A DNA stretch of 64,000 nucleotides from the NCBI GenBank assembly GCA_020829485.1, contig JAIVFU010000006.1, forward strand, positions 62,001 through 126,000, read 5' to 3'. This DNA is from Nostoc sp. CHAB 5834. Its GTDB lineage: Bacteria > Cyanobacteriota > Cyanobacteriia > Cyanobacteriales > Nostocaceae. Of this stretch, positions 3,216 through 57,289 are shown one piece after another. The position numbers and the translations under genes are program-made. Below the pieces are notes generated by a model that was not told the origin of the DNA, searched no databases, and worked only from the letters and a program-made list of their open reading frames with translations. Every line of letters starts with the position of its first letter. The first letter of the stretch is position 1.

Positions 3216-5510
3216 CTAAATTCTTTCTTCTAAGTAGCGAGAAATTGCACTCTCAAGCGAAGGCATAAATTCACCTCGGCTGCTACCAAGAACGCTGTAA
3301 GTTGGGCGGGGAGCAGTTAAGCCAAGCTGTTCTGTAGGCACAGAAATTAGATTGGTGACACTAACTCCAGCTTGTTTAGCCGCTAACCGTGCGAAATCAG
3401 CCCAAGCGATCGCACTTTTATTCGCCAAATGCCACAGCCCACACTCACCGTCAATTAATAAATCTAGGCTGGCATGAACTAAATCTGGTACATAAGTAGG
3501 TGAAACAATTCCATCCTCGGCGGCAATGAAATTATTACCAGCACTAAGCTGACGCAGAGCGATCGTGACGAAATTATACTCATCCCACGGCCCAAAAAAT
3601 GCACTAGTGCGAATCACCAACGATGCAGGATAAGCCTGCAATACCAGCTTTTCTGCCAAAACTTTGCTGCACCCATATACATTAAGAGGGGCAACGGTAT
3701 CAGTTTCGACATAAGGATTAGACACAGCACCATCAAATACCAAATCTGAGGAGAAAGTTAATAGGGGTACGTTATGTTGAGCGCAAGCAGCAGCTAGAAT
3801 CGCTGGGCCTTCGGCGTTCACTTGTATGCAAACATGGGGTTCATGTTCGGCATCGTCTACCCGCACGTATCCGGCAGCGTTCACAACCGCCCACGGCTTC
3901 AACTGGGTAAACATTGCATCCACAGAGGCAGAATCGGTAATATCCATTTCTTGGCGCGTCAGCAGCTGATATGAAATTCCGCGCACTTCGCACAACCGAG
4001 CAAAAGCCTTTCCGAGAGTTCCTCTAGCACCGACGATCGCCAAGGGACTTATTAATTTTGGATTTTGGATTTTGGATTTTGGATTATTTGAGATTGTGGG
4101 ATTTTTTGTACCACAACTGACTGTTGGGTATAATAGGCGCTGTTGTCGATGCCACCAGCCTGGGGTTTCAAGTAGCGGATGATTTAGTTGATGCCCATTT
4201 GCTAGATTCTGCACCATTTTTGCGATCGCTGTTGGTCGAGGATGTGGCAATTCTCCAGAGGAAACGCTACGCGATTCTCCAGAGGAGACGCTGCGCGAAC
4301 GCAAATCAAATACACCTGGCTCGTAGTAGCCGTTAGCTTTTGTAACTAAACTATTCCAATCGTAGCTGCCAAGGAGCGCCCAAACAGTTACAGCGCGAAT
4401 ATCCACACCCTCAGCTTGTAATTCCTTCGCCGCATTCCACACCTCATAAAACCAGCGTAGCTGCTCCTCACGGGTGCAGCTTATATGAGCTTCGGTGACA
4501 GCAAGGGGCAGGTGATAGCGTTCCCATGTTTCTAGTAACAATGTACGTGGGCCTGCCAATCCCTCAGCACAAACTCGCACCGCCTCTACATCTGCATACT
4601 TGTCATGCCCATTACCGCCATGCGTCCAAGCTGGATAATTTTCTGTATGCTCATCCAAAAAGCGTTCGCTGGTTAAATAATGGTTAATTCCAATGATGTC
4701 AGGAGGACAGGTATTTTGCAAAAATGTCTCAAGTTCAGCCTCGCTAATACCACACTTCTTTAAGTAACCCCACATTGAATGAGTTGGGTTAATTCGACCG
4801 CATAATAAATCAAGGCTCAACCAACGGCGATCGTTCTCCAGTTCTGCTTGATATTCTAGTTTAGGTGTACTGTAAGTCTTACCTAAATCCTCGGTTTGCA
4901 CTAGTTGAGCGCTAGGGTTGACTTCCCGGATTGCCTTCATTGCCAAGGCTACTGCGCGACACTCTCCCAACAAAGCACGGGCGAAAGTTAAATCATCCCG
5001 TCCGTGAGGATACCAGTGGCCATACATTCCACTGAATCGCGCCGTTGTCAGTGGCTCGTTTATAGGCGTGTAATGTGTTACCCAAGGATAGCGATCGGCA
5101 ACCGCACGAGCAAACACTGCTAGTTTCTCTGGAAATTCTGCGTCTACCAAACTCGTATCACGCGGGCCGCTACCATGATGCACTAATCCTACAATGGGAA
5201 GGATGCCGAGTTCGCGCAAGCGCCCCAATCGCTCATCCGCCCACGACCAATCAGCATTTTCTAGCCCATTAGGTGCTATCTTCTCCCACAATACAGGGTA
5301 GCGGATAGCTTTTATCCCTAGTTCTGCAAACAAATCTAAATCATTTAAGCGCGTTGCATGACCGTTGCGTTCCAACTGGTCTAAATACTCATCACCCACG
5401 CGATTAACTGTACACTCTACACCAGCCCACACTTCCAAGGGGAGTTGTGAATTATTCTCTCTCAAAACGTTGTTTGTCACGTCTTCACTTGAGTTAAAGA
5501 AAAAAGACAT
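3216..5510 (-). CDS. Fusion protein: family-1-like glycosidase + RmlD-like dTDP-4-dehydrorhamnose reductase
   Basis: A 764-residue two-domain protein. Residues about 25-420 resemble GH1 beta-glucosidases: TPINEP carries the acid/base Glu and LAVTEAH the probable nucleophile Glu, though neither context is the textbook TFNEP/ITENG. Residues about 490-760 are an SDR/RmlD domain with a GxxGxxG nucleotide-binding start (IVGARGTLGKAF), DLVFDG and the YxxxK catalytic pair (VYGCSK). The linker is unusual: it is encoded by short intergenic-type repeats (RSVSSGE twice from the cagaggagacgctgcgcg repeat, and NPKSKIQNPK from aaaatccaaaatcc repeats). It is probably co-functional with the minus-strand glycosyltransferase-mutase gene upstream, in synthesis or remodelling of exported polysaccharide. 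The sugar substrate is unknown. Confidence 0.85.
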   Translation of the reverse strand: MSFFFNSSEDVTNNVLRENNSQLPLEVWAGVECTVNRVGDEYLDQLERNGHATRLNDLDLFAELGIKAIRYPVLWEKIAPNGLENADWSWADERLGRLRELGILPIVGLVHHGSGPRDTSLVDAEFPEKLAVFARAVADRYPWVTHYTPINEPLTTARFSGMYGHWYPHGRDDLTFARALLGECRAVALAMKAIREVNPSAQLVQTEDLGKTYSTPKLEYQAELENDRRWLSLDLLCGRINPTHSMWGYLKKCGISEAELETFLQNTCPPDIIGINHYLTSERFLDEHTENYPAWTHGGNGHDKYADVEAVRVCAEGLAGPRTLLLETWERYHLPLAVTEAHISCTREEQLRWFYEVWNAAKELQAEGVDIRAVTVWALLGSYDWNSLVTKANGYYEPGVFDLRSRSVSSGESRSVSSGELPHPRPTAIAKMVQNLANGHQLNHPLLETPGWWHRQQRLLYPTVSCGTKNPTISNNPKSKIQNPKLISPLAIVGARGTLGKAFARLCEVRGISYQLLTRQEMDITDSASVDAMFTQLKPWAVVNAAGYVRVDDAEHEPHVCIQVNAEGPAILAAACAQHNVPLLTFSSDLVFDGAVSNPYVETDTVAPLNVYGCSKVLAEKLVLQAYPASLVIRTSAFFGPWDEYNFVTIALRQLSAGNNFIAAEDGIVSPTYVPDLVHASLDLLIDGECGLWHLANKSAIAWADFARLAAKQAGVSVTNLISVPTEQLGLTAPRPTYSVLGSSRGEFMPSLESAISRYLEERI

Positions 5511-5583: not shown

Positions 5584-5824
5584 GGGGCAATTCATGAATC
5601 ATTGGTGTCAATTTAAGCAAAAATACATGTCCTACAGGCGTTTTACCCCCCTTAATCCCCCCGATGCATTGGGGGGAAAAAGAGATGAGATCCAGTTCCC
5701 TCCCCTTAGAAAGGGGAGGGTTAGGGTGGGGTGACGCGGTGAGTGATGGAAAGCTAGAGAACTGAATATCACGTCTCGACAAAGGTTTCACGTTAAGTTG
5801 ACACGCGTGTTCATGAATTGCCCC
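5584..5824. repeat. Perfect 22-nt palindrome split at its apex by a MITE
   Basis: Left arm GGGGCAATTCATGAAT (5584-5599) and right arm TTCATGAATTGCCCC (5810-5824) share TTCATGAAT. Removing the insert and one copy of that 9-mer restores the perfect palindrome GGGGCAATTCATGAATTGCCCC. Outside it, degenerate ends ACTTACGCAAA (about 5549) and TTTTGCCTAAGTCCT (to about 5851) resemble the AGGACTTACGCAA element family, implying three nested layers. Confidence 0.8.
5600..5809. mobile_element. MITE-like element family A, copy 1 (TIR CATTGGTGTCAA), 9 bp TSD
   Basis: A 210 bp non-coding element with ends CATTGGTGTCAATTTAAGC and GTTAAGTTGACACGCGTG, flanked by the 9 bp direct repeat TTCATGAAT (5591-5599, 5810-5818). 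The interior has a hairpin around the gatgcattgg sequence and G/C-run stems. The reverse complement matches the copy at 56943-57148 along its length with some differences. The insertion point is the centre of a pre-existing palindrome. Confidence 0.85.
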
Positions 5825-6394: not shown

Positions 6395-8872
6395 TTAAGC
6401 CTTAACCGCTATTTGTTTGTATGTTGCTAAAGCCTGCGCCACACAATGATCCATGTTTAGATACTTGTATGTAGCTAGCCGTCCCACAAAATGCACACCT
6501 GATGTTGACTCAGCCAAAGCTTTGTATTGTTTGTAAATTTCCTGATTTTCAGGACGTGGAACTGGATAATAGGGGTCGCCTTCTGCCTTGGGAAACTCGT
6601 AAACAATACTAGTTTTGGAGTGTTCCTGTCCGGTTAGGTACTTAAATTCGGTAATCCGGGTATACAGTTGTTCGTTGGGATAGTTAATTACTGGCGCTGA
6701 CTGAAACACAGGGGTGTGATGCGTTTCGTGTTTGAAATCCAATGAGCGATAGGGTAGTTTACCGTAGCGACAATCAAAAAACTCATCAACCGGCCCAGTG
6801 TAAACCATCTCGCGGCAAGGTATAGCTTTCTCGATTTCGCGGTAATCGGTGTTGAGCATTACCTTAATATTCGGATGATTTAACATATTCTCAAACATCC
6901 GAGTAAAGCCGTGCAGTGGCATTGCTTGGTAACTATCTGTGAAATATCGGCTGTCGCGGTTTGTCCGGGTGGGAATTCGGGCAATTACTGTTTTGTCAAG
7001 TTCTGAAGGATCGAGTCCCCATTGTTTGCGAGTATAGTTTTTGAAGAACTTTTCGTAAAGTTCCTGACCAACTTTACTAATTACTACATCTTCAGAGGTA
7101 CGGATGTGTTCTCTCGGTTCTGCAACTGACTGAAAAAACTCTTCTGCCTGGAATGAGTTGAGGTTCATTCCATAGAGTTTGTTGATGGTGTCAAGGTTAA
7201 TGGGGATGGGAACAAGTTGTCCATCTACGCTGGCTAGAACGTGATGCTCATAAGAACGCCAGGGAGTGAATTGTGAGAGGTAGTCAAATACTTCGCGGGA
7301 ACTGGTATGAAAGATATGAGGGCCATACTTATGTACGAGAATCCCGTGGTCGTCGTAATGGTCGTAAGCATTACCGCCGATGTGGTTGCGCTTGTCTACA
7401 ACCAATACTTTTTTACCAGAATGTCTCGCCAAACGATCAGCGAGAACGCTACCAGAGAAGCCTGCACCAACAACTAAGTAATCAAATATAAAGTCTCTGG
7501 TAATGATGCTTGGTGCTTCTGGGATATTTGTTGAGATGGGAGATTTCCCATTTTTACCATTACCATTAGTTGTGGTATCTGGTGTGGTTGCGAAGCTCTT
7601 AAAGAGCGGCTGCGCCAACGCAGAATCTATCAACTGCATCATCGATCCCCAAGTCCGATCCCAAGAAATTTGCTCTAATAAAGTATCTACCCGACTTAAC
7701 CATCCTGATGCTGAAGTATCTTCTTGCAATGCCTGTTCTGCGGCGGCTACGAAATCTTCAGTTGTGTCTGCAATTCGTACTAGCTTCAAGTCTCCATAAG
7801 GACGCACTACATCTCGAATCGAGGTAGAGACTACAGGTTTACCTGCGGCTAAATACTCTGGTGTTTTAGTCGGGCTAATAAAACGTGTTGACTCGTTTCG
7901 CGCAAACGGCAACATTGCCAAATCCCAACCCCCTAGATATGCAGGTAAGTCTTCATAGTCTTTACTACCGAGATAATGAATATTTTCATGCTGTGGCAGA
8001 ACTGCTGGGTCAATTTTCACAACTGGGCCAATTATCACTAAATGCCAATCAGGGCGAGCCTCGGCAATTCCAGCGAGTAATTCAATATCCATCCGCTCAT
8101 CAATTACACCAAAGAAGCCAAGGCGGGGATGAGGAATATTCGCTTGGTCTGCTGGTTCTTCTTTAACGGTTCTTCCTTGGCCAAAGTGGGCTACATCTAC
8201 ACTACTGGGAAAGGCATAAACGTTTGGATGCTGGTTTACTTTACTTTCATAAAGGCTTTGCCCGCCTGTAAATACTAGATTTGCCCGACGAAATAGTTCT
8301 GCTTCGTAGTTCTTTAAAGTAGGCGATGCTCCTTTAAAAGCAGACAATTCATCCATGCAATCGTAGATAACAGCTTCTGGTTCTAAATGGCTTGCCCATG
8401 CGATCGCCATTGGCGTATAGTACCAACAAATGTACTTAGAGATATTATTTTCTGCAAATAACCCATCAAGCAGTATTTTTATATCTGCGTTTACTGCTTC
8501 TTCAGTTAGACCTTCTGGTAGATATGGAACAACAACTATCACTCCACTTTTATCTTCACTAACGTCCAATCGCCCCAATGGTTCCCGGCTAAAAATTGGC
8601 TCTTCGATAAAGAACACTCTCTTTTTTTGAGCGCAGCGACTTAAAAGATGTTGTGGTCTTTGATATACAAAATTCCAACGCAGATGAGATAAGCAAACTA
8701 TATCAGGTGTATCGGTAAAAGCTTTTGTTGACCGAGAGCTTTTGTTAAATGAGGATAAATTTTTTGATGTCCCTAGCGATTTCGCTGTCTCCGATGATTT
8801 TGCTTCATTTACCGTTGGCGACACACTATGGCTCACACCGTTGTTTTGTACTTGCACTTTATTGCTTGACAT
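6395..8872 (-). CDS. glf: Fusion protein: glycosyltransferase + UDP-galactopyranose mutase
   Basis: An 825-residue protein. An N-terminal low-complexity Ser/Lys stretch (1-50) is followed by a GT-B-like glycosyltransferase (about 55-420; SHLRWNFVYQRPQHLL, PHPRLGFFGVIDERMD, TPEYLAAGKPVVST). Residues about 455-825 are a UDP-galactopyranose mutase: an FAD-binding GAGFSGSVLADRL motif, the family block HKYGPHIFHT, and PYRSLDF. The mutase interconverts UDP-galactopyranose and UDP-galactofuranose, so a fused transferase could use Galf or a related sugar directly. Cytosolic. It is on the same strand as, and upstream of, the glycosidase-reductase fusion, which suggests a shared polysaccharide role. 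Two consecutive multi-domain fusions in one locus are notable. Confidence 0.92.
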   Translation of the reverse strand: MSSNKVQVQNNGVSHSVSPTVNEAKSSETAKSLGTSKNLSSFNKSSRSTKAFTDTPDIVCLSHLRWNFVYQRPQHLLSRCAQKKRVFFIEEPIFSREPLGRLDVSEDKSGVIVVVPYLPEGLTEEAVNADIKILLDGLFAENNISKYICWYYTPMAIAWASHLEPEAVIYDCMDELSAFKGASPTLKNYEAELFRRANLVFTGGQSLYESKVNQHPNVYAFPSSVDVAHFGQGRTVKEEPADQANIPHPRLGFFGVIDERMDIELLAGIAEARPDWHLVIIGPVVKIDPAVLPQHENIHYLGSKDYEDLPAYLGGWDLAMLPFARNESTRFISPTKTPEYLAAGKPVVSTSIRDVVRPYGDLKLVRIADTTEDFVAAAEQALQEDTSASGWLSRVDTLLEQISWDRTWGSMMQLIDSALAQPLFKSFATTPDTTTNGNGKNGKSPISTNIPEAPSIITRDFIFDYLVVGAGFSGSVLADRLARHSGKKVLVVDKRNHIGGNAYDHYDDHGILVHKYGPHIFHTSSREVFDYLSQFTPWRSYEHHVLASVDGQLVPIPINLDTINKLYGMNLNSFQAEEFFQSVAEPREHIRTSEDVVISKVGQELYEKFFKNYTRKQWGLDPSELDKTVIARIPTRTNRDSRYFTDSYQAMPLHGFTRMFENMLNHPNIKVMLNTDYREIEKAIPCREMVYTGPVDEFFDCRYGKLPYRSLDFKHETHHTPVFQSAPVINYPNEQLYTRITEFKYLTGQEHSKTSIVYEFPKAEGDPYYPVPRPENQEIYKQYKALAESTSGVHFVGRLATYKYLNMDHCVAQALATYKQIAVKA

Positions 8873-10496: not shown

Positions 10497-13400
10497 ATGA
10501 TGCACTCTCCAAATTCAGAAAATAACCAGAAACCACCTAATCGTCGTTTATGGCTCCTCCTCTTAGGACGTAGCAGTTTGGCTCTCGGTGTCGTTTTGCT
10601 GGTTGGAATTGCAGTCGGTGCTTGGTGGGCTAGAAGCTATATATATAAAGATTTAGCGCCATTAGTACAGCAAAATCTCGAACAATTGCTTGGGCGTTCA
10701 GTAAAAGTAGGGAAAGTTGAACGTTTTTCACTAAATAGTCTAAGATTTAGCTCTCTATCAATACCAGCAACTCCCACCGATCCAGATCAGGTAGTAGCAA
10801 AAGCCTTAGATGTGCAGTTCTCGCCCTTACAACTCATCCTGACACGAAAACTAGCATTAAATGTCACGTTAATTCAACCCAATGTCTACATCCAACAGGA
10901 TCAAGATGGTCGCTGGGTTACAGCCCAAGTCAAGGCTGGGGAAGGAAAAGGTGCTATTCAAACTGAGTTAGAAACACTTCAAATTCAAGATGGGAATGTA
11001 GAGTTATCGCCAGCTTCCGGGGCAACTAGACCGAAAGGGTCAGTAATATTAAATCAATTTAGTGGTATTGCCCGATTTTTTGATCAAAATCAACGAATTG
11101 GTTATGACATCAATGGTCAACTCGCTAGGGGAGGCGCAGTTAAAATCTCTGGTGAGACACAAACCAAAGCTCAACAAACAAACCTCAAGCTGCAAGCACA
11201 AAATTTACAAGCATCTGATATAAGTCGATTAATTGAATTGCCAATTGCTTTGCAAGGAGGGCGTTTAGATGCTGATTTAGGGGTTCAGATTCCACCCAAA
11301 CTGTCAGAAATAGCCGTTACAGGAACCGCTACAGCTAATCAAATCGTTGCTAAAATTCCCAAGATTCCTCAGCAAGTTTCTAATTTTAATGGGAGTTTTA
11401 TATTTCAAGGTCAGACAGTTTCTTTAGAAAATCTGAATACGAACTTTGGCAAAGTTCCTATTGTGGCTAATGGAACAATTAATACCCAAACAGGTTTTAA
11501 TCTCTCTGCTCAAATAAAACCAGTTAGTGCGAAAAATATCTTAGACACGCTGAATATAAATTCGTCAGTCCCAGCTAGTGGCGAAATTCAAGCAAATATT
11601 AAGGTAGGCGGCGCACTACAGCAACCAGTCGTTAGCGGTACATTAAACAATACAAAACCTATTCAAGTTGACCGCCTTCTCTTCACAGCCGTCAATACTG
11701 ACTTCCGTTTGAATGTATCTCAAACTACTTCTCAAATTGCTGTCTCCAATCTGACAATAGTCCCCGCAGCAGGTGGTCAAATCACAGGCGGCGGTCAAGC
11801 TAATATCGGAGCCAAAGATAACGTAATATTTAATGCTCAAGTTGATGGTGTATCCGGGGATATACTAGCGCGTAACTACGGTGTTGCTCTACCGATCGCA
11901 GTTGGCAATATTTCAGCAAAAGCAGAAGTTTCTGGTTCACTTGGCAAACAACCATTGAATCTTAATATTACTAGTGTTCAAGTAACGCCGCCAATAGGCG
12001 GAAGAATTACAGCTAGTGGTCAAGTTCAACTGGCTCCCCAAGGTCAAGTAGCTTTAGGTATTCAAGCTCAAAATTTACCAGCAAATGCGATCGCTCAAGG
12101 TTACGGCATCTCAACTCCAATTAATCTTGGTGGTATATCTGCTAACGCAAAAGTTTCTGGTTCTCTAGGTAGCCCATTAAACGTAAATGTTGCTAGCGTT
12201 CAGGCAAATCCAGAGGTGGGAGGGCAAGTCACAGCTAGCGGTCAACTTCAGCTTGCACCCCAAGGTAAGGTGGCGTTGAATGTCCAAGCACAAAATTTAC
12301 CAGGAGATGCGATCGCACGAGCTTATAACACTTCACCTAACATCACCATTGGGAATGTATCGGCGAATGCCAGAATTTCCGGCTCACTTGGCAACCTGCG
12401 GGCAGTAACGCAGGTGCAAGCGCCCACAGCCACCTATCCGATTACGGGTCAAGCTGTTGTAACTCAACAAGGGCAGAATATCCTCTTACCAAATGCTGTG
12501 TTGAACGTGGCAGGCGGTACAATCAGGGCTACGGGTAAAGTTGTACAACAACGCTGGCAGGCTTCTGTGAATGCCCAACAGCTGCAATTGAGCCGTTTTG
12601 AACAGATACCACCCCAGTTCCAGGGAGTTTTAAGCAATGCGGCGTTGAATTTGTCAGGAAGCACTGCTTCTTTCCAACCCTCAACCATTCAAGCTACAGG
12701 GCAAGCAAGGCTGAATGTAGCAGGAGGTGCGGTTAATCTCAGCAATATTAACCTTGATGCTGGTCGCTGGCAACTGCTTGCCAACACTTCCCAAATTCAA
12801 CTAAATCGGTTCTCACCACAACTGCGAGGACGACTTAATAGCAATATTCAGTTAGCAGGTACAACAGAATCTTTCCAGCTTGCAGATATTCGCGCTGGTG
12901 GACAAATCCGCCTTTCCCAAGGGGTAGCACTGCTGGCAAAACCGCTTACCGCTCAATTTCAGTGGAATGGACAGCAGATTATCGTTGAAAACGCAAGTAC
13001 CCCAGGATTGAGTGCTAATGGTGCGATCGCTATTCAAACTCTACCAACTGGCGCACCGGAAATTGCGGGATTTAATTTAAATGTGCTGGCACAGAATTTC
13101 AACTTAAAAAATACTGGTTTTGAAATTCCTGGTGACGTAGCACTAGCGGGGTTACTTGATTTTAAAGGACAAGTTACAGGTACTCCAGATGTTCCGCAAG
13201 CCAACGGCAATATCCGACTGCGGAATTTCCAGGTTAGTGACTTGGCATTTGACCCGCTTTTAACCGGAAACGTGAATTTTCAAGGAGGACAGGGAGCAAG
13301 TCTGCAATTAGCTGGGAAACAAGATAGGATAGCGTTGAACCTGGGTGCAGATTATCGTCCCACTTCATTTTTAGTTCGACGGGATGGAGCAGTTGCGACA

Positions 13401-41489: not shown

Positions 41490-43829
41490 CTAATGCACTT
41501 CACGTCGTGCTGCTGCTAAAATTATCCGTTGTTCAGCACGAGCGATCGCCTGATAGGTTCGCTCGACTGCTTCCGGTTCAACGGAAATGGATGTTATACC
41601 CCATTCCACTAACTTATCGATGATTTCTGGATAGATGGCTGGTGCTTGACCGCAGATTGAACAAGGGATACCGGCACTTTTAGCCATTTGGATCAGTTGA
41701 GCGATCGCACTCATAACTGCCGGATGACGTTCATTAAATACTTTTCCTAGCTGTCCTTGCTCTCGATCCACTCCGAGCAATAATTGGGTCAAATCATTTG
41801 TACCAATAGAAATTCCGGCTGCACCTGCTTTAACATATTCTGGCAGTAAAAATAGGACGCTTGGCACTTCTGCCATCATCCACAATTGAAACTGTGACAC
41901 CTCAGTTAAAAGAGCTTGCTCAACTTTACGACGGCAAAAGACAAATTCTTCCACAGTCCGCACAAAAGGCACTAGTAGATTTACATTGCTGTAACCAGCT
42001 TGCTGGACACTCGCTAAAGCTTGTAGTTCTAACTCAAAGACTGCGGGATTTCGTAAGTAGCTGAAAGTACCACGTTCACCCAACATCGATTGTGTTGAAG
42101 ATTGTAAATTATCACTCAATGATGGTAAATCTTGCGGCCAATCTAAAGAACGATAAAAAACTGGTCTTGGTGCAAAGGCACGGGCAAACTGGATAATTTG
42201 CTCAGACCATAGCTCTAACAATTCTGCTTGCCGCCCGCCTAAAATCCAACTATTAGGATGTTGCCCAGACAATATATTTAGTACCATCAATTCTGAGCGC
42301 AACAATCCCACTCCATCCACAGGAAAGCTTTGCACTTGTTCTATTAAACTGGACTGACTCAAGTTAACCAGCAGTTGGGTAGCAATCATAGGTAGATGAG
42401 AAGCAACAGGATGGGATGGGGAAATAGAGGGATGGAGAAGATTTTCTGCCACTTTCCTCTTCTCCATCTCTCCCGTCCCACTTTCCCCTTCTTCTTTAAT
42501 CCGATAAACTTCTCCTCTGTCGCCATCGAGTAGCAGTCGTTCGCCAGTTTGGATTAAGGTTGTAGCAGATGTTGCATTAACTACTGCTGCGATACCTAAT
42601 TCTCTGGCAAGAATTGCAGCGTGGCTGGTTAATCCGCCTTGTTCAGTAATAATACCACCAACTTGGTGCAGTAATGGCAACCAATCAGGTGCGATCGCTG
42701 CTATTACTAAAATCACTCCTTTGGGTAATTGTTCGGGTTTGTGTTGCGGATTAATTACTAGGGCAGTCGCCACAACACGTCCTCCTGCCGCCCCTATTCC
42801 CCTAATGAAGTGTCTGTGGTTAATTACAGATTGGGGAGAACTAACTTGTGTTATGTAGAGCTTGCCAGATGTATTTTGCTCGGCGATAGTCCATTTAATC
42901 GTAAAGTTTTGACCCAGTTCACTCAGCAGTTGAGTTCCTAGAGCAATTATTTGTTGTATGTATTCTTCTTGTAAAGCATACTGTTTTTGTTGGGCTTCCT
43001 GAATTAAGTAGATATTTAGACAAGTGTGATCTGGTGTTAGGGCTGACTTGGGCACGGGTTGCGAAAAAGCTTCCGGTGCTGTATGCACACCATAAGCGAG
43101 CATTTTATTGCCCAACTGCTGCTCAAGCACAACCCCGCTTGCCTGTTGAATGTAGTAAACATCTGGCTGGACTTCGCCAAGAGCGATCGCAATTCCTAAT
43201 CCCCAAGTAGCTTCAATTTCCCAGCCAGAGGAGTTGGCACTCAGCAAGCCACTAGCGATCGCATTCTCAACAGGTTGAACCAAAACGGCTAAACTGATTT
43301 GTTGCAGGTTAATTCCTGCCCGTTGCCAATATAGTAGACTTCTGGCACGAAATATCTGGCTCCAGGTACGCTTGAGGGCATAAGCGATCGCTTCGGGTTC
43401 GCACTGGCAAAACACCGACTCCAGCAAACCAGATATATTCTTCATCCCTAAAGTAGCATTTGATACTGCTAAAGTAGGTCGAAGAATCAAACAGCCAGTT
43501 TGCCATTCTCTAGCTGCTTGGAAAATTGTATTCACCCAATCCTTTGGCACAGTCGCAGTGAGGATTTCTTGGCGCAAGCGACCAGCTACCTGCTGAAGTT
43601 GACGCCAATTAGCTACATCTAGGTGTAACGAAGAATGGGGTAAGTCAGCCACTAATGACTCTGAACTATTGAGATTTTCGAGAAATGCTCGCAAAATTTC
43701 TGCCGAAACAACAAAACCAGGCACCACCGGATAGCCACGCTGCATGATTCTGCTCAAGTAAAATGCTTTGTCACCTACTTTGGCGCGGTCTTGTAGTTTA
43801 ATTTGGTCTAGCCAGTAGAGTTTGTCCAC
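41490..43829 (-). CDS. Phosphoenolpyruvate synthase-like PEP-utilising enzyme
   Basis: 779 residues. The N-terminal ATP-grasp/PPDK domain (DRAKVGDKAFYLSRIMQRGYPVVPGFVV) runs to about 330. The swivelling phosphohistidine domain has GGLTSHAAILARELGIAAVV (about 400-420). The C-terminal PEP-binding barrel (from about 500) has SIGTNDLTQLLLGVDRE and SICGQAPA (catalytic Cys). Consistent with pyruvate + ATP to PEP, although it diverges from classical PpsA and could use another substrate. Between the swivelling domain and barrel an extra hydrophilic segment (EEGESGTGEMEKRKVAENLLHP..., about 42395-42500) is encoded by repetitive gatggagaag/gggatgggg sequence, another in-frame repeat insertion. Confidence 0.82.
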   Translation of the reverse strand: MDKLYWLDQIKLQDRAKVGDKAFYLSRIMQRGYPVVPGFVVSAEILRAFLENLNSSESLVADLPHSSLHLDVANWRQLQQVAGRLRQEILTATVPKDWVNTIFQAAREWQTGCLILRPTLAVSNATLGMKNISGLLESVFCQCEPEAIAYALKRTWSQIFRARSLLYWQRAGINLQQISLAVLVQPVENAIASGLLSANSSGWEIEATWGLGIAIALGEVQPDVYYIQQASGVVLEQQLGNKMLAYGVHTAPEAFSQPVPKSALTPDHTCLNIYLIQEAQQKQYALQEEYIQQIIALGTQLLSELGQNFTIKWTIAEQNTSGKLYITQVSSPQSVINHRHFIRGIGAAGGRVVATALVINPQHKPEQLPKGVILVIAAIAPDWLPLLHQVGGIITEQGGLTSHAAILARELGIAAVVNATSATTLIQTGERLLLDGDRGEVYRIKEEGESGTGEMEKRKVAENLLHPSISPSHPVASHLPMIATQLLVNLSQSSLIEQVQSFPVDGVGLLRSELMVLNILSGQHPNSWILGGRQAELLELWSEQIIQFARAFAPRPVFYRSLDWPQDLPSLSDNLQSSTQSMLGERGTFSYLRNPAVFELELQALASVQQAGYSNVNLLVPFVRTVEEFVFCRRKVEQALLTEVSQFQLWMMAEVPSVLFLLPEYVKAGAAGISIGTNDLTQLLLGVDREQGQLGKVFNERHPAVMSAIAQLIQMAKSAGIPCSICGQAPAIYPEIIDKLVEWGITSISVEPEAVERTYQAIARAEQRIILAAARREVH

Positions 43830-54832: not shown

Positions 54833-56248
54833 ATGTCCAGCAAGATAAAATTTGGCACCGATGGATGGCGAGGAATTATTGCCGATGACTTTACTTTTCC
54901 CAATGTGCGGAAAGTAACAAGGGCAATCGCCACTTATTTAGAAACAGCCTACACAAAAGATAGACCAGTACTTATTGCCTACGATACTCGTTTTTTAGCT
55001 GACCAGTTTGCTCAGACAGCGGCGCAAGTACTTGCAGACTTAGGTTGGACTGTAAAAGTTACTGATCGGGATTGCCCCACACCAGTAATTGCCTACAACG
55101 CCCGTCACCTAAATTCCGCTGGGGCGTTAATGTTTACTGCTAGTCATAATCCAGCACCCTACTGTGGAATTAAATATATACCCGATTATGCTGGGCCTGC
55201 CACTCCAGAGATTACTGATACTATTGTGGCAAATATAGAAAGTGCATCTGATGAGTTGCCTGGAAGCAACCCGTCAGGTTCAATTTCAATTTTCGATCCG
55301 AAACCTGATTACCTGCAATTTATCTACACCCTACTTGATGTAGAAAAGATTAAAAGCGCTAATTTAAAGGTAAAGTACGATGCTCTGTATTCTACCTCTC
55401 GCGGCTATTTAGATGAAGTTTTGCTTCATTGTGGCGTTCAGCTAGAAAGTTTCCACGATTGGCGGGATGTTTTATTTGGGGGTGGAATGCCAGAACCCAA
55501 AGGAGAACAATTAGTTGAGTTAGTGGAAGCAGTAGTTCGCGATCAAGCCGATTTGGGCTTGGCGACGGATGGAGATAGCGATCGCTTTGGTATCGTTGAT
55601 GAACAAGGAACTGTCCTGACTCCGAATACTGTGCTGTTGGTTCTAGCACGTCATTTAATCAAAAACAAAGGTAAAACAGGCGCTATAGTCCGCACTGTGG
55701 CGACAACCCACCTGCTGGATAATTTTGCTGCTAAAAATGGGCTGCAAATTTACGAAACACCAGTCGGTTTTAAATACATCGGCGAAAAAATGCGCGAAAC
55801 TGCCGTGTTAATCGGTGGAGAAGAATCAGGTGGTTTGAGTATTATTGGGCATATTCCCGAAAAAGACGGGGTATTAGCCGATATGCTGGTGGCAGAAGCG
55901 ATCGCTTATGAAGGCAAACCCTTAAGCCAACTTGTTAAAGAAGCGATCGCCGAAGCCGATGGCCCACTTTACAACAAGCGCTTAGATTTGCACCTCACAG
56001 AGGCGCACAAAATCGCCGTCATCGACTCTTTTACTAAAAATCCACCTACAGAGGTAGCAGGAATTAAAGTCAAGGAAGTCGGGCGTAAAGACGGTATTAA
56101 GCTGTATTTAGAAGAAGGTAGCTGGGTTTTACTGCGTCCTTCTGGTACAGAACCACTGGTGCGCGTCTACCTAGAAACTCACACTCCCGAAAAACTCACC
56201 CAAATCGCCCAAGAGTTAGAGAGTGTCATTGCTAAACTAGAGGGATAA
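54833..56248 (+). CDS. Phosphohexomutase (phosphoglucomutase/phosphomannomutase family)
   Basis: About 471 residues from MSSKIKFGTDGWRG (54833); the frame extends to TTG 54794, but conserved sequence starts here and GGGAG lies upstream. Active-site Ser104 in FTASHNP, Mg2+ loop DGDSDRFG, sugar-binding GEESGG and phosphate-binding RPSGTEP are all present. Interconverts hexose 1- and 6-phosphates, feeding glycogen, sucrose or nucleotide-sugar synthesis. The exact sugar cannot be fixed from motifs. It is followed by a long heptad-like repeat tract. Confidence 0.93.
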   Translation: MSSKIKFGTDGWRGIIADDFTFPNVRKVTRAIATYLETAYTKDRPVLIAYDTRFLADQFAQTAAQVLADLGWTVKVTDRDCPTPVIAYNARHLNSAGALMFTASHNPAPYCGIKYIPDYAGPATPEITDTIVANIESASDELPGSNPSGSISIFDPKPDYLQFIYTLLDVEKIKSANLKVKYDALYSTSRGYLDEVLLHCGVQLESFHDWRDVLFGGGMPEPKGEQLVELVEAVVRDQADLGLATDGDSDRFGIVDEQGTVLTPNTVLLVLARHLIKNKGKTGAIVRTVATTHLLDNFAAKNGLQIYETPVGFKYIGEKMRETAVLIGGEESGGLSIIGHIPEKDGVLADMLVAEAIAYEGKPLSQLVKEAIAEADGPLYNKRLDLHLTEAHKIAVIDSFTKNPPTEVAGIKVKEVGRKDGIKLYLEEGSWVLLRPSGTEPLVRVYLETHTPEKLTQIAQELESVIAKLEG

Positions 56249-56256
56249 GAATTAGG

Positions 56257-56404
56257 AGTTAGGAGTTAAGAGTTAGGAGCTAGGAGTTAAGAGTTAAGAG
56301 TTGTAAATTAACAATTTTTAACTTCTAACTCCTATTCACAGTTATGAGTTATGAGTTCTAAATTAATAACTCCTAACTTCTCACTCCTAACTCCTAACCT
56401 TTAG
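56257..56404. repeat. (GAGTTAG)n / (CTAACTC)n low-complexity inverted tract
   Basis: Left half is tandem ttaggagttaggagttaagagttagg. Right half is its complement (taactcctaacttctcactcctaactcctaacc), so the whole can form a long imperfect hairpin. The CTCCTAA units are the same as those inserted in frame in nifJ at 1028-1111. Confidence 0.7.
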
Positions 56405-56424
56405 CTTTTAACTTCGCTCAAAAT

Positions 56425-56861: not shown

Positions 56862-57289
56862 GTAGGACTTACGCATTGACAAGAAATACCAAATATATAT
56901 TAAGGTTAAAAACCATATCTTTTGTAAGGGCACAGCAATGCTCATACGTGTCAACTTAACGTGAAAGCCATGTCGAGACGTGATATTCAGTTCTCTGGCT
57001 TCCCATCACTCACCGCGTCACCCCACCCTAACCCTCCCCGATGCATTGGGGAGGGAACTGGATTTCTTTTTCCCCCCAATGCATCGGGGGGATTAAGGGG
57101 GGTAAAACGCCTGTGGGACATGCATTTTTGCTTAAGTTGACACCAATGAGCAATGCTGTGCCTCTACAGCATGGTCTATTTGCGTAGTTTACCGCCGTAG
57201 GCATCGCAGGATAATTAAGAAAAGCCTGAAAACTTCCTATTTTAAGTAATGTACATCACGATGTATTTGTACAGTGCGTAAATCCTACA
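56862..57289. mobile_element. Outer element (TIR GTAGGACTTACGCA) containing nested repeats
   Basis: Ends GTAGGACTTACGCATTG and CAGTGCGTAAATCCTAC. Subtracting the nested family A element leaves about 215 bp, including the hairpin AAGGGCACAGCAATGCTGTGCCTCT. The same TIR family appears at 31582-31698. Confidence 0.7.
56943..57148. mobile_element. MITE-like element family A, copy 2, 9 bp TSD at hairpin apex
   Basis: 206 bp with ends CATACGTGTCAACTTAAC and GCTTAAGTTGACACCAATG, flanked by the 9 bp direct repeat AGCAATGCT (56934-56942, 57149-57157). Removing element and one TSD copy restores the hairpin GGCACAGCAATGCTGTGCC. The reverse complement matches 5600-5809, including the aacgtgaaa..cgtctcgaca, gcggtgagtgatgg and gatgcattgggg blocks. 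Confidence 0.88.

Follow-up and report, generated by a model that had tools for sequence, protein, structure and literature searches.

A Nostoc MITE With IS4-Type Ends and Its Preference for the Axes of Dispersed Palindromes

Introduction

A palindrome in the genome of Nostoc sp. CHAB 5834 is split at its center by a small mobile element, and the central 9 bp of the palindrome stand on both sides of that element. The question raised by this locus is what the element selects when it inserts, a DNA fold or a sequence that is symmetric in itself. The window analyzed here is a stretch of 64,000 nucleotides that carries two copies of the element. An earlier note on this DNA had described copy 1 as a MITE that inserts precisely at the apex of hairpins, and had attributed target choice to secondary structure or symmetry rather than to a fixed sequence. 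Here, we describe the two copies and their relatives in other genomes, the candidate parent insertion sequence (IS), and the sites that are occupied or left empty.

Two Copies of the Element in the Window

The features of both copies are listed below. The left half of the copy 1 target is assigned from the reading of the junction and from element-free orthologues.

5584..5599, + strand: left half of the target palindrome, reading GGGGCAATTCATGAAT; its last 9 bp are the duplication TTCATGAAT (5591-5599)
5600..5809, + strand: MITE copy 1, 210 bp, with terminal inverted repeats CATTGGTGTCAATTTAAG / CACGCGTGTCAACTTAAC
5643..5732, + strand: internal module of MITE copy 1, also a dispersed repeat on its own
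5810..5824, + strand: second 9-bp duplication (5810-5818) and the right remainder of the palindrome, TGCCCC
56928..56942, + strand: left half of the copy 2 target palindrome, GGGCACAGCAATGCT, ending in the target-site duplication (TSD) AGCAATGCT (56934-56942)
56943..57148, - strand: MITE copy 2, 206 bp, in the orientation opposite to copy 1
57149..57162, + strand: second copy of the TSD AGCAATGCT (57149-57157) and the right remainder of the palindrome, GTGCC

The junctions of copy 1 read as the earlier note had claimed. GGGGCAA (5584-5590) is followed by TTCATGAAT (5591-5599), by the element, which runs CATTGGTGTCAATTTAAG...CGTTAAGTTGACACGCGTG (5600-5809), by a second TTCATGAAT (5810-5818) and by TGCCCC (5819-5824). 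At 210 bp, the element is too small for a transposase gene. Deletion of the element together with one 9-mer restores, again as claimed, a perfect 22-bp palindrome, GGGGCAATTCATGAATTGCCCC, whose central 9 bp are the ones duplicated. The axis of this palindrome falls between two bases, and hence the middle base of the 9-mer lies 0.5 bp off the axis. The observation of a MITE that splits a palindrome and duplicates its central 9 bp is thus confirmed.

The earlier note had proposed a search for empty sites, and these were found for copy 1 in four related genomes. In G026, G027, and G024, the flanks of copy 1 are contiguous and their alignments overlap by exactly 9 bp. The empty site reads GTAGGAGCAATTCTTGAAT followed by TGCCTC in G026, GTAGGGGCAATTCATGAAT followed by TGCCCC in G027, and GTAGGGACAATTCAAGAAT followed by TGCCTC in G024, and the 9-mers are TTCTTGAAT, TTCATGAAT, and TTCAAGAAT, respectively. 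The fourth genome, G001, holds an element-free GGGGCAATTCATGAATTGCCCC (GTAGGGGCAATTCATGAAT followed by TGCCCC), and its right flank diverges just past the site. All four relatives have one copy of the 9-mer or of a one-letter variant. The palindrome of copy 1 therefore predates the insertion.

The internal module of copy 1 (5643-5732) on its own matches many places in related genomes, with about 85-92% identity among the many matches listed, and is thus a separate dispersed repeat nested in the MITE. Copy 1 lies 89 bp upstream of the start of a single long frame (3216-5510) in which beta-glucosidase-like and dTDP-4-dehydrorhamnose-reductase-like parts were recognized by eye. Another single long frame of the window, at 6395-8872, has glycosyltransferase-like and UDP-galactopyranose-mutase-like parts, also by eye.

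The TSD of copy 2 sits inside the palindrome GGGCACAGCAATGCTGTGCC. The flanks of copy 2 (56863-56967 and 57149-57287) recur at many places in related genomes, so that its palindrome lies within a larger repeat. With up to three mismatches allowed, the terminal repeat has five matches in the window compared with 0.28 expected in shuffles; four of them are the ends of the two MITE copies, and the fifth, at 43594, stands without a nearby partner end and is probably a chance match. At 56246-56413, the window has closely packed TTAGGAGTTA-type repeats whose arms are inverted.

Copy Number, Lengths, and Target-Site Duplications

The element is abundant in related genomes. In G001, the nearest genome, the end core GTGTCAAYTTAA gives 98 + 95 matches and a reversed control 5 + 2. 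The 18-mer CATTGGTGTCAACTTAAG is present in 27 of 39 relatives, among them each of the 23 congeneric ones; its reversed control is present in none of the 39. Several genomes together yielded 179 anchored element units, comprising 93 complete copies, a few of which are tandem or share ends in overlapping pairs (e.g., L028, L046, L102), and 86 single ends without a partner, which were used in half-site counts only. Lengths cluster near 107, 190-210, and 300-500 bp, and four copies measure 1410-1418 bp. Alignment of 13 copies shows common ends and strongly different interiors. In a search of plasmid DNA with the MITE, 11 records, mostly Nostoc, gave matches, but no single place in any of them covered 80% of the MITE. 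A two-part pattern scan of a sequence collection gave no match.

The 9-bp TSD proposed in the earlier note is the rule among exact duplications, where other lengths are rare. Exact duplications of at least 8 bp flank 47 of the 93 complete copies, and 45 of these are 9 bp long, with one of 8 and one of 10 bp; the choice of partner ends favored pairs giving a TSD with at most one mismatch, which biases this count towards 9 bp and not towards palindromes. The remaining 46 copies have a shorter exact match or none. Compared at 9 bp, the flanks have no mismatch in 45 copies, one in 21, and two in 8. In the other 19 they disagree by more than two mismatches, likely through recombination between copies and, for some, possibly through wrong pairing of ends. 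The site statistics exclude these 19 and use the other 74.

Two arrangements among the loci depart from simple insertion. At L022 (1495-1900) and L031 (about 10745-10960), MITE ends or copies stand as tandem pairs only 9 bp apart, which suggests repeated insertion at one site or recombination. At L015 and L020 the element is flanked by inverted rather than direct copies of the 9-mer, as expected if flanks were swapped via inversion between two copies.

Insertion at Palindrome Axes

The empty site was rebuilt for the 74 copies with at most two mismatches at 9 bp, and complementary pairs were counted over 12 positions on each side of the TSD center (±0.5 bp). At least 9 of the 12 pairs are present at 42 of the 74 sites, compared with 135 of 50,000 random positions of G001 (binomial p ~1e-87); 11 of 12 central pairs occur at nine of these random positions and 12 of 12 at none. 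A search for the best axis within 6 bp gave 46 qualifying sites. Their axis lies within 0.5 bp of the TSD center in 42 cases, at 1 bp in one, and at 2.5 bp in three, and the axis offsets of random positions near palindromes have a flat distribution. These offsets bear on the reading that insertion is random and that copies survive only in expendable intergenic repeats. Such palindromes are indeed described as extragenic repeats (excerpt of PMC3733652), but selection would not put the TSD center so close to the axis in 42 of 46 sites when offsets are flat elsewhere, and we find this reading scarcely credible.

Kinship among copies is a real concern for these statistics. Flank matching groups the 74 copies into 33 clusters, the largest with 27 members. 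When one copy per cluster is taken, the threshold of 9 of 12 pairs is still reached by 16 of 33 (p ~1e-32), and among unique contexts by 13 of 29 (p ~3e-26). The clusters, the recurrence of the copy 2 flanks elsewhere, and the many hairpins found in larger dispersed repeats would also fit a composite mobile unit made of palindrome and element, with the palindrome halves as outer ends, whose axis coincidence is copied along with it. However, element-free palindromes are frequent: G001 has 96 sites of the GGGN5CANTGN5CCC class, palindromic in 49 of the 50 listed. Further arguments against a composite unit are that copy 1 has element-free orthologues, that elements with these ends are found in more than one stem and also, with 9-bp TSDs, at sites that are not palindromic, and that a TSD within the palindrome is unexpected for a composite end. 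A composite unit is largely refuted for copy 1 and, for the element as a whole, very improbable.

The palindromes themselves are likely of a known class. The target repeats GTAGGGGC...GCCCCTAC are palindromes of 20-40 bp with GTAG at an end and a high copy number, properties of GTAG-type REPs. The tag of such REPs is unpaired at one end only; here, a CTAC frequently faces the GTAG from the opposite end. The families are related to each other, and many lie within larger repeats. GTAG- and CGTC-tagged palindromes are reported in Nostoc and Anabaena (excerpt of PMC3733652), and the GTAG-tagged repeats reported there are likely the class of targets seen here.

Axis insertion is strongly preferred but not universal. 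Eight of the 74 sites are non-palindromic by eye (L039, L062, L104, L145, L148, L206, L216, L219), and of the 17 complete copies in an 800-kb part of G001, 8 lie outside palindromes of at least 9 pairs. Low scorers include imperfect or recombined hairpins and the tandem copies L022, L031, and L102. As palindromes are missing around some copies, the best intact IS among them, "precisely at the apex" describes a strong tendency of insertion and not a rule. Among the 74 sites, those outside palindromes are nevertheless not the majority, as 42 reach 9 of 12 pairs.

A Candidate Parent Insertion Sequence

An IS4-family transposase was first recognized in a decayed copy in L087, and a fragment search then gave an intact IS. 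This IS, at locus L104 in G026, measures 1413 bp and has perfect 18-bp ends CATTGGTGTCAACTTAAG, a 9-bp TSD, and an uninterrupted frame for a transposase of 439 aa. An IS with the same ends as the MITE, which the earlier note had suggested looking for, thus exists; one of its ends agrees with one end of the MITEs in the window over 24 bp, except for one base in copy 1. The transposase matches NF033592 IS4 with 194.4 bits (cut-off 115) and DDE_Tnp_1 (PF01609) above its cut-off. In its single frame it has the YREK motif YRRRWRVEDAFLLTK at 317 and the DDE triad D155-68-D224-99-E324, where the D-E spacer of 99 compares with about 100-150 given for IS4 (part of PMC2266710). The ends have the pattern CA------T, with T at position 9, the length falls within the 1150-1750 bp of IS4Sa, and the TSD is 9 bp; IS4Sa is described with ends CA------T and direct repeats of 8-10 bp (part of PMC2266710). 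The putative parent is an IS4-family IS that, by end pattern, length, and TSD, appears most like IS4Sa. The element of the window is rightly called a MITE, being short, with inverted ends, a TSD, no transposase, many copies, and a related autonomous element.

Copies of IS size occur both within and outside hairpins. L102, L106, L118, and L284 (1151 bp, on a Nostoc sp. UHCC 0926 plasmid) lie in hairpins, and L104, L105 and L286 (both with flanks as at L104), and L285 (on a Nostoc sp. C057 plasmid) lie outside them. The TSDs are non-palindromic at L104 (AATTAAGGG) and at L285 (GACTTACTT). In G001 itself, homologues at E ≤1e-40 have only 40% and 31% identity, and hence the MITEs of G001 may rely on a distant transposase or be immobile.

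The ISAs1 family, a guess from TSD length, was rejected as the parent: in an NF033564 search of 19 genomes, the ends flank the gene at 0 of 31 loci examined, some of which are fragments. G003 has 60 ISAs1-family matches, many of the listed ones with internal stops, apparently a large and decaying IS expansion.

Sequence and Structure of the Target

The two palindromes of the window share GTARGGGC at -14 to -7 and CA at -2/-1 in the same register, and TG follows CA at 0/+1 in copy 1 and at +1/+2 in copy 2. The palindromes of the two copies do differ, as the earlier note stated, but they share these letters in a common register. The same letters recur across the 74 sites. At the center, C is found at -2 in 55, A at -1 in 51, T at +1 in 50, and G at +2 in 54. 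The left arm has G at -10 in 61, at -9 in 55, and at -8 in 61, and the right arm has C at +8 in 60, at +9 in 61, and at +10 in 56. Positions 3 to 7 carry little fixed letter information. Pairing there exceeds the prediction from column composition at ±3 (40 vs. 23) and ±4 (36 vs. 24), and pairing beyond the fixed letters may matter for targeting. This excess is one of four points in favor of recognition of an extruded hairpin or cruciform, with a secondary preference for some loop or stem letters. The others are the position of the TSD center, no more than 0.5 bp from the axis at 42 of the 46 palindromic sites, the use of several stems (the 16 sites in unique contexts that reach 8 of 12 pairs have 15 different 23-bp cores), and the absence of GGG/CCC arms from 3 of 42 occupied palindromes, the arms being present in the other 39 over all loci.

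Hairpins that are left empty argue the other way. In 800 kb of G001 (L031-L070, of which 680 kb were picked for containing element ends), palindromes with at least 9 of 12 pairs and GGG/CCC arms were occupied in 9 cases and empty in 48, and armless ones, many of them weak, were occupied in 0 and empty in 1396 (p ~1e-13). G001 also has 45 GAGACG-N10-CGTCTC sites, mostly perfect hairpins with A+T-rich centers. Up to 3.11 Mb, GGGN5CANTGN5CCC sites were occupied in 20 of 70 cases (50 empty) and GAGACG-N10-CGTCTC sites in 0 of 22 (p = 0.003), with the empty-subclass counts and the 22 of 45 sites tallied by hand and the element positions taken from the first 100 of 193 end matches listed (to 3.7 Mb). 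A loose GAGACG half-pattern matches one of 272 element ends (L134), whose rebuilt core is outside that family. The symmetric motif is enriched as a whole: full sites were occupied in 8 cases and empty in 13, and the half-site alone in 2 and 50 (p = 0.0005), where a 1-bp register shift was permitted for occupied sites and not for empty ones. Neither strict half of the GGGN5CANTGN5CCC motif is matched by 40 of the 74 sites.

Comparisons between stem subclasses gave mixed results. GGGCACAGCA, with an ACAGCA stem, was occupied in 8 cases and empty in 5, compared with 2 and 15 for GGGCATGGCA, with an ATGGCA stem (p = 0.007). Other stem tests were non-significant (ACGGCA vs. ATGGCA, p = 0.18; ACAGCA vs. 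ACGGCA, p = 0.09; pooled, p = 0.065), and hairpin age could confound the comparison of subclasses.

The proposal of secondary structure or symmetry rather than fixed sequence is not borne out as worded, as the 74 sites share letters and hairpins lacking these letters are abundant and rarely or never occupied. The earlier interpretation of target choice is thus partly supported. We conclude from these comparisons that hairpin geometry alone appears insufficient and that a symmetric sequence is probably read, possibly with a contribution from pairing. Recognition of the extruded structure is rather unlikely. A transposase that reads both letters and fold, capturing extruded hairpins and checking their GGG/CCC arms and CANTG apex, is unlikely; if that were so, the DDE enzyme would truly read hairpin apices and accept a range of stems.

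Proposed Mechanism and Significance

Taken together, we consider it probable that the element is a MITE of an IS4-family IS and that its target is a long two-fold symmetric sequence supplied mainly by GTAG-type palindromes. From the shared ends, an IS4-family DDE transposase would act on the MITE in trans. It would recognize the ends of about 18 bp and excise the element, presumably by cut-and-paste. Insertion would follow with a 9-bp stagger, and the 9 bp between the staggered cuts would become duplicated. The preferred target is modeled as approximately GGG-N5-CA-N-TG-N5-CCC, and its two-fold symmetry would be contacted by a transposase dimer whose axis is that of the site. The enzyme would read the duplex sequence and not an extruded hairpin. 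Symmetric sites are supplied mainly by the dispersed GTAGGGGC...GCCCCTAC palindromes, and therefore insertion looks like apex targeting. If a symmetric sequence is what is read, insertion is predicted at GTAGGGGCACGGCACTGCCGTGCCCCTAC and none at the GTAGAGACG hairpin; if structure is read, both should be used.

The filled and empty sites form a large natural set for telling structure from sequence models of transposase targeting. The two kinds of model are separable because one genome holds targeted hairpin families and equally good untargeted ones. The sites also reveal a layering of repeats, in which dispersed palindromes are landing sites for IS4-type MITEs that themselves carry other repeats. 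Additionally, the REP-targeting elements, few in number so far, gain an IS4 member here, one whose TSD axis matches the axis of the target.

Comparison With Known Systems

The IS231A target is GGG-N5-CCC, and the spacing of its G and C blocks is unlike that of the site described here. IS231A and its relatives are likewise IS4-family elements whose ends begin with CAT and which have some insertion specificity, but TSDs in the IS231 subgroup are 10-12 bp long and not 9 bp (part of PMC2266710). REPs or palindromic units are also targeted by IS1397 and ISKpn1 (IS3 family), ISPsy8, ISPpu9/10, ISPa11, and IS621, and ISPsy8 inserts at the symmetry axis (excerpt of PMC1525189). Unlike the element described here, none of these belongs to the IS4 family. 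The IS110 family, including IS621, is reported to use a bridge RNA. Nezha and other cyanobacterial elements named in parts of PMC3733652 and PMC10969869 are likewise MITEs, and the present element may be identical to Nezha. Open-licence literature gave no paper with the end sequence and no title or abstract start describing the element, which may already be published elsewhere.

The closest precedent is ISRm22 of Sinorhizobium meliloti, which resembles the element described here in its IS4 family, its REP target, and its insertion at the axis. Nine copies of ISRm22 are in REPs, its reconstructed target is highly palindromic with insertion at the axis of palindromy, and some copies have imperfect repeats, attributed to recombination (excerpt of PMC1525189). 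ISRm22 has been placed in IS4Sa, and the arms of its target are conserved (part of PMC2266710). As far as those excerpts describe it, ISRm22 differs in its repeats of 6 bp, compared with 9 bp here, and in having one target consensus in one genome, compared with several palindrome families and mostly MITE copies here. Insertion at REP axes by an IS4-type element is thus already known, and here it is seen mostly in MITEs, with a 9-bp TSD and in several palindrome families.
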